This document shows, piece by piece, positions 28,019 to 37,180 of a DNA stretch of 64,000 nucleotides; the first letter of the stretch is position 1; the number at the start of each line of letters is the position of its first letter. The stretch spans positions 1-64,000 of the forward strand of contig NZ_ATUT01000004.1 in assembly GCF_000420345.1 (NCBI RefSeq), given 5' to 3'. The translations under genes were made by a program, and so were the position numbers. A model generated the notes under the pieces. That model ran no database searches. It was not told the DNA's origin and worked only from the letters and a program-made list of their open reading frames with translations. Origin of the DNA: Faecalicoccus pleomorphus DSM 20574. Lineage in GTDB: Bacteria; Bacillota_I; Bacilli_A; Erysipelotrichales; Erysipelotrichaceae.

Positions 28019-29113
28019 TCATAAGCCTTTTTTAGATTTCAAGATATCAAAAAGGCGGATCAAGCCTTCTTTAAATTGATCTGGATCTTGCCCCAGACCT
28101 AAACGCATAAAGCCTTCCTGATCAAAACAAGCGCCGGGCACAAAAAAGATGCCGTGCTCCTTTAATAAATATTGCGCTGTTTTCACGCTGTCTTTCATCC
28201 CTTTGATTTCTAAAAAACATACGGTTCCGTTTTCGGGAATCACACAATCAAATAGATCTAGATCCTTTAACCATTCTTTTAGGAAGGACCGATTTTGATC
28301 CAGGATCGCATTTGTTCTCTGCAGGATCGATTCTTTGTTTTCTAAAGCCGCTGTACCTAAGGCATCTAATAAAGGGCCCGTTGAGATCATCGTATAATCT
28401 CTTCGACTGTTGATCTTAGTGATGAGGTTTGAATTGGCTTTGATCCATCCTAAACGAAGTCCCGCAAGACCATACATCTTGCTTAAAGAAGATGTACTGA
28501 TTCCCCTTTGATACAGATCACTGATGCTTGGCAAACGATTTGGATCCCGATAAACTTCATCGCATAAAATATAGATTCCTCTTTGATCACAAACCTTGAT
28601 CAATTCTTCTAAAAAAGGAAGATCATATTGTGTACCGGTTGGATTATTCGGATTATTTAAAACGATCAATTTTGTATGCTCCTGGATCGCATCCAAAAAA
28701 TCCTGCAGATTAGGCTGCCATAAGCTTTCCGGAAGAAGTTGAATCGTAGAAACTGTACACCCTAAAGACTGGGGATAACTGACAAACTGCTGATATCCCG
28801 GAACACAGGCAATCACATGATCCTGTGGCTCTAATAGGGTTTCCATCACAAGCACATTGGCTTCCAGACAACCGTTGGTGGTGGTGATATTTTCTTCACT
28901 TCCGGTTTTATATAAAGATAAAATCTGTTGCCGAAATGCCAAACTTCCCTGAATTTCTCCATAATCCAGAACCAGTTTGGATAAATCTGTCTTCACCATT
29001 TGCAAGAGTTGCTCCATAGAAAAAGAAGAAGCACAAGTGTCCGTCAAATTGTACCTAGCTTGTCCTTCATTCTCATTCATCCATTGTTCAACTTTAAAAT
29101 CAGCTAATTTCAT
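28019..29113 (-). CDS. Pyridoxal-phosphate aminotransferase, class I/II
   Basis: 364 residues of the aspartate aminotransferase fold. NNPNNPTG near residue 153, DEVYRD near 185 and the PLP lysine in [16 protein letters not shown] near 212 are all present. The N-terminal arm is short. The start overlaps the ABC ATPase stop by 4 bases (ATGA), so it is translationally coupled to an amino-acid importer; it probably works on the imported amino acid. Substrate not determinable from sequence. Confidence 0.9.
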
Positions 29114-29841
29114 TCGTAGAATACCTTACTTAGAAAATCTTTAGCACGATCCGATTGTGGATTGGAGAAAAACTCTTCACTCGGTGAATCTTCCACGATC
29201 TCGCCATGATCTAAGAATACAACACGACTTCCCACTTTGCGGGCAAAGCCCATTTCGTGTGTGACCACGATCATCGTCATTCCTTGTTTTCCTAAATCTT
29301 TCATAACTTCCAGCACTTCCTTGATCATCTCAGGATCTAGAGCACTGGTTGGTTCATCAAACAACATCATTTCCGGATTCATACATAAAGCACGGGCAAT
29401 CGCCACACGCTGTTTTTGTCCTCCGGAAAGATTGTTGGGATAGGCATCTTTCTTGTCGGCCAGTCCAACTCTTTCCAAATACGTCAAGGATGTTTTTTCC
29501 GCTTCTTCCTTAGAACGGTTCAATACTTGAATCTGTGCCAAATTACAGTTTTCCAGTACCGTCATATTTGGAAACAAATTAAAGTGCTGGAACACAAAAC
29601 CCATCTTATTGCGCTGTTGACGATATTTCTTTTCATCCTTGGGATCCATCAACTCCCCATTCATATAAATTTTCCCCTGATCTACTTTTTCAAGACCATG
29701 AATGCACCTTAACAATGTACTCTTACCGGAACCGGAAGGACCAATCAAAGAAACGATTTCGCCCTGATTGACTTCCAGCGATACATCTTTAAGTGCATGC
29801 AGTTGTCCGAAATTCTTTCGAATATGTTCTACTTTAATCAC
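29110..29841 (-). CDS. Amino acid ABC transporter ATP-binding protein
   Basis: 243 residues, GlnQ/HisP size. Walker [10 protein letters not shown] (about 33-41), Q-loop FQHFNLF, signature LSGGQKQR near 137, Walker [11 protein letters not shown] near 160 and switch histidine in VVTHEMGFA near 194. It powers uptake of polar amino acids together with the permease and binding protein upstream. It overlaps the permease by 8 bases and the aminotransferase by 4. Confidence 0.96.
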
Positions 29842-30517
29842 TGACAGCCAACCTCTTTTCTACTCGTTTTCCAATATAAGAAATACTGATTGTCATCACC
29901 AAATAGAAGATTGCCGCTAAAAAATAAGGCGACATAACTTCATAGTATTCAGCACCTACGATCTGGGCGCTCTTTAACAATTCAATAGCACCAATGGTAC
30001 TTGTCAGAGAGCTGTCTTTAATCAAAGTGACAAACTCACTGATGATCGGTGGAACGATCAACTTAAAGGCTTGCGGCAATACGACAAACCGCATGGTCTG
30101 CCATGAGCTTAATCCTAAAGTTTCACAGGCTTCCCATTGTCCTTTATCCACACCGTTGATCCCACTTCGAATCAGCTCCGTTGAATATGCACCGGAGTTA
30201 ATGCTCATGGCAATGATACCAATTAAATACACATTGATTCGCAATACTTCGCCGGTAATGGCGGTATAGATCGAAGGAATCACCGAGAAGATGATCAAGA
30301 TCTGTAACAACATTGGTGTTCCTCGAATCACTTCTACATAAAAGTTACCGATCGCACGCAATACGATATATTTAGAACGTTTGGCACTGGCTCCTAAAAC
30401 ACCGAGTATCAAACCAATAAATAGGGATAGTATGGCCATCCCTAATGATACTAACGCTCCTTTCGCAAAGTATAGCGCCGTCTCAAGTGTAAATACTTGC
30501 TCAAAGGCTGAAAACAT
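29834..30517 (-). CDS. Amino acid ABC transporter permease
   Basis: 227 residues of the HisM/GlnP family with about five transmembrane segments. The EAA loop, which docks to the ATPase, is [20 protein letters not shown] near residue 128-147, and [13 protein letters not shown] near 60 is also typical. As the only permease gene in the unit, it is expected to form a homodimer. It is 19 bases downstream of the binding protein. Confidence 0.95.
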
Positions 30518-30536: not shown

Positions 30537-31304
30537 TTATTCTACTGCCGTAAGACCGTATTCTTCACACATCTTGGCATAATCATCACTGGCGATGAAT
30601 GCTTCGATGCATTTATTGATCAAATCGATCATATCTGTATTGCCTTCTTTGGCAATGATGTAGTTCTTTTCATCCATCAAGACACCATCTAATACAGTAA
30701 AGTTTCCACTTTCGGCATAGCTCTTGGCAACACCGGAGTCGATAACGGCCGCATCATACTGATTAGCACTCAAGGCATTCATGATATCCTGTACGTTTTT
30801 CAAACCTGTTACTTCTCCACCGGCATCTTTGGCAGCCTGTTCTCCGGTTGCCCCGGTTTGTGCCGCAATTGATTTTCCGGCCAGCTGATCGATGGAAGTA
30901 ATATCAGAACCAGCCGGTACAACGGCTACCTGTGCAGAACCAAGATATGGTTCGCTCCATTCTACTTTTCTGTCTTCATCGTAAGTGAATCCAGAAATTC
31001 CCAAATCGATCTGATCACCCTGAATCTGTGTAACGATGTTATCGAAGTCCATCTGTTTAAACTCGAACTTATAAGAAGTTTCTTCATTTTCATTCAGGTA
31101 GTTTTCAAACCAGTCAACCATGTCGATATCAAACCCTACCATCTCATTATCTGTATTCAGACTTTCATAAGGTTCATAATCCGGTGAAATACCAATTGTG
31201 ATCGTTTTTGTATCTTTGTCTTCTGTAGCCGGTTCACTGCTTGAACATCCAACCATTGTGGCAGCCATAGCAGCTGCTAATCCCATTTTTAATAATTTAC
31301 TCAT
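30537..31304 (-). CDS. Amino acid ABC transporter substrate-binding lipoprotein
   Basis: 255 residues. Lipobox MVGC (about residue 19) then a family 3 solute-binding fold with GISPDYEPYE, GFDIDMVDWF and the GISGFTYDEDRKVEWSEPY region, as in polar amino-acid binding proteins. The start is ATG 31302-31304, with GAGGAG 7 bases before it; an ATG five codons upstream lies inside that SD. It is the first structural gene after a T-box and an arginine-rich leader ORF, which hints at arginine or another basic amino acid, but the pocket has not been modelled. Confidence 0.93.
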   Translation of the reverse strand: MSKLLKMGLAAAMAATMVGCSSSEPATEDKDTKTITIGISPDYEPYESLNTDNEMVGFDIDMVDWFENYLNENEETSYKFEFKQMDFDNIVTQIQGDQIDLGISGFTYDEDRKVEWSEPYLGSAQVAVVPAGSDITSIDQLAGKSIAAQTGATGEQAAKDAGGEVTGLKNVQDIMNALSANQYDAAVIDSGVAKSYAESGNFTVLDGVLMDEKNYIIAKEGNTDMIDLINKCIEAFIASDDYAKMCEEYGLTAVE

Positions 31305-31349
31305 ATGTTTTCTCCTCATCTTTCTCTCTTCTAATTTTTCTTTTTTTGT

Positions 31350-31409
31350 TTACTTGTTTTTAGATGCGAATCTATCGCATCGTCGTCGGTCTTCTTTACT
31401 CATTCGCAT
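31350..31409 (-). CDS. Arginine-rich 19-codon leader ORF between the T-box and the ABC operon
   Basis: ATG-initiated, 19 residues, MRMSKEDRRRCDRFASKNK, with GAAAGG just upstream (9 bases before the second ATG). Five arginine codons include three consecutive CGA. The start region AGATGCGAAT (31402-31411) is exactly complementary over 10 bases to ATTCGCATCT (31362-31371) near its end, and a second copy GATGCGA (31375-31381) can pair with the same target, giving two exclusive hairpins. This is the layout of a leader peptide sensing ribosome stalling. No T-run follows the hairpin, so control would act on translation or stability. Not a known family. Confidence 0.5.
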   Translation of the reverse strand: MRMSKEDRRRCDRFASKNK

Positions 31410-31420
31410 CTTCCTTTCTA

Positions 31421-31648
31421 TAAAAAAAATCGCCCTTCTTACAAAGGACGATTAACTCGCGGTACCACCTTAATTCCATCCGCCATACGGATGACACCTC
31501 ATTCTTAACGCGAATACACGATCATTGCCTCACACTTTCGACAATGCGACTCCAAGACACGTTCCAGATTTCTTCCTGCGAATTTTCACCAGCCATTCGC
31601 TCTCTGTAAAGAAAACCATCTGTACTCCTTCTCTTCTTTGTCTTTATG
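31421..31648 (-). promoter_or_regulatory. T-box riboswitch upstream of the amino acid ABC operon
   Basis: Read on the minus strand: a stem I region with the AGTA loop motif and the GGTGAAA apical loop, then the T-box core AAGGTGGTACCGCG (31458-31471) and a strong terminator AATCGTCCTT/AAGGGCGATT followed by eight T (31422-31453). Uncharged tRNA stabilises the antiterminator. The specifier lies in GGAACGTGTCTT: CGT (arginine) if a purine follows the specifier as in glyQS, GTG (valine) if read directly after GGAAC. Arginine fits the polar amino-acid transporter and the arginine leader ORF better, but this is inference. Confidence 0.93.
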
Positions 31649-31654
31649 GACATA

Positions 31655-31682
31655 ATTATACACACGAAATCCTTTTTTGCAA
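31655..31682 (-). promoter_or_regulatory. Promoter of the T-box transcript
   Basis: TTGCAA (31677-31682), 16-base spacer, TATAAT (31655-31660) on the minus strand. Transcription would begin near 31648, immediately before stem I. Confidence 0.7.
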
Positions 31683-31729
31683 CAAAAAGTTGAAAATTTT
31701 TGAAAGCATTTTCTGAAAACGACTTACAT

Positions 31730-37024: not shown

Positions 37025-37083
37025 ATAAAAATACCTCCTTTCCCATCGTGCAATGGAAAAAGAGGCATAGTTTGTCCATTACA

Positions 37084-37180
37084 ACAGCGGGATGCAAAAT
37101 ATGTATCGCAAGAACTCTTTTCGTTTTCAGACCAACTCCCCGTGTCTGAAACACTTAACGCACATATTTTTACTCTGCTA
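37084..37180 (-). promoter_or_regulatory. Tetrahydrofolate (THF) riboswitch
   Basis: Minus-strand RNA with the conserved AGAGTA near the 5' side, GCGTTAAGTG, GGGAGTTG and the closing TTGCATCCCGCTG, the known THF-class I aptamer landmarks and spacing, directly before folT. Downstream, AATGGA and TCCATT form a stem whose loop carries a CCTCTTTT stretch able to pair with the folT SD AAAGGAGG, so control is probably at translation initiation. Confidence 0.9.

Follow-up and report, generated by a model that had tools for sequence, protein, structure and literature searches.

In a 64,000-nucleotide (nt) stretch of the genome of Faecalicoccus pleomorphus DSM 20574 (contig NZ_ATUT01000004.1, positions 1 to 64,000, in its full length called the window here), an arginine-specific T-box leader is followed in tandem by a short leader open reading frame (ORF) with consecutive arginine codons, upstream of the genes of an amino-acid ATP-binding cassette (ABC) importer. 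Both elements are conserved in relatives, and the arginine codons keep a nearly constant distance from the start of the downstream gene. The tandem may form a two-stage arginine sensor which reads the same tRNA twice and whose stalled state favours expression, an interpretation that we hold with little more than even confidence. A first-pass annotation of the window had proposed a two-layer arginine response controlling an ABC importer. As an architecture this is well supported, and the importer is located downstream; the control extends further, to argG, and the action of the second layer is something that we infer.

T-box, specifier and leader ORF

The T-box leader (31441-31647; all features of the window described here are located on the minus strand) matched RF00230 over its full length with 135.4 bits (cmscan, E 5.9e-30), exceeding the curated cut-off of 93 bits of this covariance model. 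Its intrinsic terminator (31453-31428; with the U-run 31422-31453) overlaps the 3' strand of the T-box. A putative promoter-like site, TTGCAA-16-TATAAT, was found at 31655-31682 by a consensus scan only.

The Rfam alignment is compatible with two specifier registers, reading either CGU or GUG. The register was therefore calibrated within this genome, on T-boxes whose amino acid is evident from the downstream gene; the genes were named by recognition of their N-terminal sequences. In these T-boxes, GAA followed by 8 nt and GGAG leads to CAC (hisZ-like), UAC (tyrS), UUC (pheS), GCU (alaS), and CUC (leuS), whereas GAA followed by 9 nt leads to one extra base and then AUG (Met genes), AAA (lysS), or GUA (valS). 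Since the spacing is 8 nt in the T-box of the window, its specifier is CGU (31559-31561, with G31558 next), and the arginine assignment of the first-pass annotation was confirmed. The valine reading (GUG) was excluded by the calibration and by the specifiers of relatives, CGU-A and CGA-G, which read arginine in the calibrated register but valine (GUA) and glutamate (GAG) in the other. By the calibrated rule a CGN specifier was parsed in 159 of 221 T-box motifs of the loci fetched in the survey described below, 152 of which have CGU, CGC, or CGA followed by a purine, in the two common registers. Many of these CGN T-boxes precede argG, which settles the arginine pathway.

The GGAAG sequence lies directly behind the U-run of the terminator and is followed by the leader ORF MRMSKEDRRRCDRFASKNK (31350-31409), which comprises 19 codons and is led by a Shine-Dalgarno (SD) sequence. 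Its first ATG is at 31409-31407 and its TAA stop codon at 31352-31350; a second in-frame ATG (31403-31401) corresponds to the start conserved across genera. The proposed stall site CGA-CGA-CGA occupies 31380-31388, a position relative to the gene start which is conserved over 99 loci. In the window, 84 nt separate the Arg-Arg codons and 45 nt the leader stop from the importer start. Thus, T-box, terminator, and leader ORF with its own SD sequence and arginine run were all recovered as first described. The tRNA-Arg set of the genome consists of ACG, UCU, CCU, and CCG, hence the CGU specifier and the CGA codons should share one tRNA, tRNA-Arg(ACG), as the decoder of both.

Conservation and geometry

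The leader pattern MRM..EDRRRC..FAS is kept in 3 further Faecalicoccus genomes, including F. acidiformans and an uncultured Faecalicoccus. In other genera the leader has DRR at the same place, as in MESDRRYEIIFDLHTKKGRNKT of Holdemanella, the stop of which overlaps the importer start. Conservation in relatives, on which the first-pass annotation had let its proposal depend, therefore holds for related species and across genera. A pattern scan of the Erysipelotrichales, in which a T-box core had to be followed by CGACGA 50-110 nt on, was positive in 90 of 315 genomes and 24 of 79 genera. The fetched loci were nearly all arginine T-boxes before argG or a gene for a solute-binding lipoprotein, and their CGACGA shared its reading frame with an SD-led start. 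They yielded 117 non-redundant candidate leaders, a few of which are parsing artefacts (e.g. L139, L140, and L227). In a survey of argG without motif selection, which shared some loci with the first scan, 65 of 74 upstream regions had a T-box. An Arg-Arg leader followed 42 of these 65 T-boxes by script, and about 40 after removal of two SD artefacts by eye. The genome of the window itself contains a second arginine T-box with an Arg-Arg leader, located before argG (L009, MSEKVRRCGCRLYSLNEFKDGGE, C1:302376-302646, minus strand). The stop of this leader lies 1 nt before the argG ATG, and the argG SD sequence falls within the last codons of the leader.

None of the 19 other T-boxes of the genome is followed by an Arg-Arg leader. 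The recurrence of such leaders after arginine T-boxes across the order, together with their absence at these 19 sites, places the leader above chance. Among 20 genomes with 167 exact GTGGTACCGCG T-box cores, the CGACGA matches were all on arginine T-boxes, with one apparent exception. Wider phylum and class samples, apparently dominated by small-genome relatives and not covering Lactobacillales and Bacillales, gave few matches outside the Erysipelotrichales; these were not leader-like by eye, with no in-frame or only an implausible leader where parsed. Four mini-ORFs after arginine T-boxes, L085 (MKVLFLRLVKE), L093 (MNRVNLLR), L240, and L242, contain single Arg codons only and are possibly decayed or incipient leaders.

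CGA accounted for 211 of 234 codons of the leader Arg pairs compared to 16% of the Arg codons in genes of the window, although the leader set was enriched by the CGACGA search. In the argG set, which was not selected for CGACGA, CGA was still predominant and CGU pairs were absent. The run could alternatively serve as an RNA element instead of codons, for example one that base-pairs with UCGUC in the terminator strand of the T-box. Matched pairs of leader and T-box indeed share slightly more complementarity than mismatched pairs (5.01 versus 4.85 nt), but this difference is tiny, uncorrected for relatedness, and was rated negligible. A further family of the order has CGG-CGA leaders, in which Arg-Arg persists although the motif is absent, an indication that codons rather than letters are conserved. 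Given also the reading frame shared with an SD-led start, we regard an RNA element as extremely unlikely.

Distances were determined at the 99 loci whose gene start was identified, leaving out L227; the loci are mutually related, and the figures are descriptive rather than independent trials. The Arg-Arg pair, found at codons 2-12 of the leader, is located at a median of 69 nt from the gene start (median absolute deviation (MAD) 5, quartiles 63-74, minimum 50). In contrast, the distance from leader stop to gene start has a MAD of 25 and ranges from -303, where the frame enters the gene, to +138. Leader length and stall distance were not correlated (rho 0.10). Because the Arg-Arg distance is near constant while the leader stop wanders, the conserved part is, judged from these distances, the stall site rather than the peptide or the leader stop. 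The distance between leader start and gene start shows a similar regularity (MAD 6), which the position of Arg-Arg at codons 2-12 would predict; either the Arg-Arg pair or the leader start may therefore be the anchor. If footprints of about 18 and 20 nt are assumed, the gene start would stay clear of a stalled ribosome at all 99 loci. The 50-nt minimum accommodates two ribosomes side by side (about 38 nt assumed), which would imply that translation of the gene is intended to take place during the leader stall.

Two groups of loci differ from this picture. In L102-L106 and L191, argG loci of another genus, the spacer that separates the leader stop from the gene is unusually long (59-149 nt) and structured; the 69-nt distance is not kept there, and the mode of working may differ. 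In L120, L128, L136, L148, L153, L157, L159, L164, L168, L178, and L201 the leader frame is open into the gene of the solute-binding protein, and read-through would yield an N-terminally extended protein.

Possible modes of action of the leader

It is well established that binding of an uncharged tRNA to a T-box lets transcription pass the terminator. In the favoured mechanism the CGU specifier would pair with tRNA-Arg(ACG), and the uncharged tRNA would allow transcription past the terminator as a first stage. Each read-through mRNA would then carry the SD-led mini-ORF, whose early CGA-CGA-CGA would be decoded by the same tRNA as a second stage. When Arg-tRNA is short, a ribosome would stall at about 70-84 nt before the importer gene, a distance at which a second ribosome could still start; when arginine is back, the leader would be read through and the ribosomes would move on. 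The stalled state might favour expression of the read-through mRNA, either because nucleases are kept away from it or because leader ribosomes are held off the gene start, or for both reasons, and mRNAs made during starvation would be switched off once arginine returns. Both elements with their arginine specificity, conservation, and geometry are established here, whereas we infer the stalling at CGA, its positive sign, and its route of action. The action of a T-box is confined to transcription itself. A second sensor that reads the same tRNA on the completed mRNA would give a fast shut-off once arginine returns and would explain why the T-box alone is insufficient.

As to the route, we tentatively propose, as a possibility falling short of a probable one, that the ribosome parked at a stand-off of about 70 nt is itself the agent, that leader stop and peptide are irrelevant, and that the mRNA released by the T-box is active only while the tRNA is uncharged. 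If true, such a mode would be distinct from attenuation, RNA refolding, and start-site masking alike. The genome encodes two copies of RNase J as well as RNase Y; RNase J2 takes part in the degradation of a T-box operon mRNA in S. aureus (PMC3771891).

Several observations weigh against the two-stage sensor. About a third of the argG T-boxes, as well as several close importer loci, lack a leader, which implies that the second stage is dispensable. In the T-box bulge UGGUACC (31461-31467) UGG pairs with CCA, but the variable U meets G73 of tRNA-Arg(ACG) in a U-G wobble only. In folding models a ribosome at Arg-Arg changed the openness of the gene start by a median of 0.07 kcal/mol. Since a stalled ribosome gains no opening of the gene start, RNA refolding does not seem to be the link, and the candidate mode in which it frees the gene start from RNA structure was excluded.

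The first-pass annotation had drawn attention to two hairpins competing for the same segment, and both pairings were found. The start hairpin (31362-31411) is formed by the start-region arm AGATGCGAAT (31411-31402), which pairs in 10 of 10 positions with ATTCGCATCT (31371-31362); the leader start codons are in or at its 5' arm and the Arg codons in its loop. In the alternative small hairpin (31363-31381) the internal copy GATGCGA (31381-31375) pairs in 7 of 7 positions with TCGCATC (31369-31363). A 151-nt region was more stable than all 200 shuffles (z -3.3), a value that includes the T-box terminator and does not apply to the leader hairpin alone. In an alignment of 8 sequences from 3 genera, 94% of the cells of the start hairpin were paired and 5 of 11 pairs had changed on both sides. 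Its covariation was 0.477 versus 0.244 in shuffles, with none of 500 as high and slid controls far lower, although both arms had been positioned manually beforehand, a choice that biases the count towards the structure. The 3' arm encodes varying residues (FAS, FAL, DLH), indicating that the pairing rather than the peptide is kept.

These compensatory changes, and the internal hairpin in all four Faecalicoccus sequences, speak for the switch envisaged in the annotation, in which the ribosome position would choose between start and internal hairpin and thereby set importer translation. However, the internal copy is limited to these four sequences and absent in other genera. Over 96 loci the leader start had on balance no excess of structure over versions with a shuffled spacer (median z 0.06), though 14 loci exceeded z 2 where about 3 were expected. 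Moreover, neither hairpin involves the importer start region, which is open either way. Such a switch is therefore highly unlikely. Covariation establishes the start hairpin for one clade, as a lineage-specific feature; as a general device it was excluded, since only some lineages carry it. Given this restriction, the mechanism does not centre on alternative hairpins, which look like a local supplement and may restrict how frequently the leader is entered.

Leader ORFs with a run of cognate codons are also known from the classical attenuators of the trp and his leaders. Unlike these, the loci described here lack a terminator after the leader: only the T-box terminator is present in 31280-31720, with none between leader and importer gene, and no second terminator was seen after the leader in folds of the inspected loci. 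The window thus does not belong to the transcription attenuators with a leader peptide.

Comparison with known systems

The tandem of a T-box and ribosome stalling is already known for tryptophan from rtpA of B. subtilis (PMC11255114). As in the rtpLP/anti-TRAP system, both elements respond to the same uncharged tRNA and serve one gene, and the window has the SD-led ORF with a cognate codon run (CGA three times) after the T-box. The present systems differ in sensing arginine instead of tryptophan, in serving argG and importers instead of a regulator, and in occurring in many genera; furthermore, the stall-to-gene distance is conserved here while the stop position varies. In rtpLP, ribosomes finishing the leader reportedly disturb the start of the downstream gene. 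A corresponding masking is conceivable here: the finished leader ribosome would occupy and repress the ribosome-binding site of the gene, and an Arg-Arg stall would leave it free. The geometry would allow this in 58 of 99 loci, where the leader stop either precedes the gene start by less than 30 nt or overlaps it (often as ATGA), or where the frame enters the gene; the argG copy L009 with its stop 1 nt before the ATG is among the supporting cases. The sign would also be that of the known Trp case (PMC11255114). In the other 41 loci, including the window with its 45 nt, a terminating ribosome could not reach the gene start. In addition, several leaders end directly after Arg-Arg (MESSGRR, MKERRR), and the stop position is the least conserved distance. 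We consider masking credible but doubtful. Masking would fit the 58 loci without the window, whereas the parked ribosome fits all loci and is indifferent to the stop, and we modestly favour the latter. In this natural set the stall site is fixed and the stop was varied by evolution, which makes a long-standing question, the influence of a stalled leader ribosome on the downstream gene, directly testable.

In Salmonella, orf34 of the speF leader likewise has two consecutive early Arg codons. Low arginine causes pausing there, which stabilises the mRNA and leads to expression, and CGA-CGA can replace the native codons (PMC6386406). It differs from the present case by the lack of a T-box, by a structured leader acting with Rho and RNase G, and by its gene, which encodes ornithine decarboxylase. 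The rbfL leader of S. aureus (PMC13009471) is another short leader of a Firmicute that senses arginine by rare Arg codons, but it has no T-box, and the ribosome paused on it represses by covering the ribosome-binding site downstream. This mode is disfavoured here because Arg-Arg lies at least 50 nt from the gene start in 99 of 99 loci.

Repression on stalling, as in rbfL, would also result if leader ribosomes terminated and reinitiated on the gene, so that leader translation raised expression and a starvation stall lowered it. Reinitiation has been proposed generally for short leaders near genes (PMC4833913), and many of our leaders overlap or abut the gene. Nevertheless, it would oppose the T-box, the stop positions are not clustered at short distance, and the rbfL precedent depends on a covered gene start. 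We judge this explanation highly unlikely. An arginine version of the tandem or such a distribution was not described in the literature searched, most subscription journals being outside its scope; in this sense both appear to be new. If the two-stage sensor is real, anti-TRAP of B. subtilis would become one example of a wider design. To our knowledge, it is the only precedent for the combination of T-box and stalling.

The gene directly downstream of the leader encodes the solute-binding protein of the importer (30537-31304; Pfam SBP_bac_3), with a likely ATG start at 31304 preceded by the SD sequence GAGGAG and supported by relatives. It is followed by genes for an ABC permease (29834-30517; BPD_transp_1) and an ABC ATPase (29110-29841; ABC_tran, GlnQ-like by NCBIfam below cut-off). 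The best matches of the importer to substrate families were lysine/arginine/ornithine and glutamine, all below cut-off. Overlapping the ATPase gene is a gene for a pyridoxal phosphate-dependent aminotransferase similar to PRK07324 (28019-29113; Aminotran_1_2, best NCBIfam match NF005593 below cut-off). This protein more weakly resembles capreomycidine synthase and GntC, enzymes of arginine derivatives. Elsewhere in the window, a tetrahydrofolate riboswitch (RF01831, 91 bits, 37083-37179) is located just upstream of a gene for a 182-aa membrane protein (37024-36476), which looks like an ordinary folate-transport arrangement.
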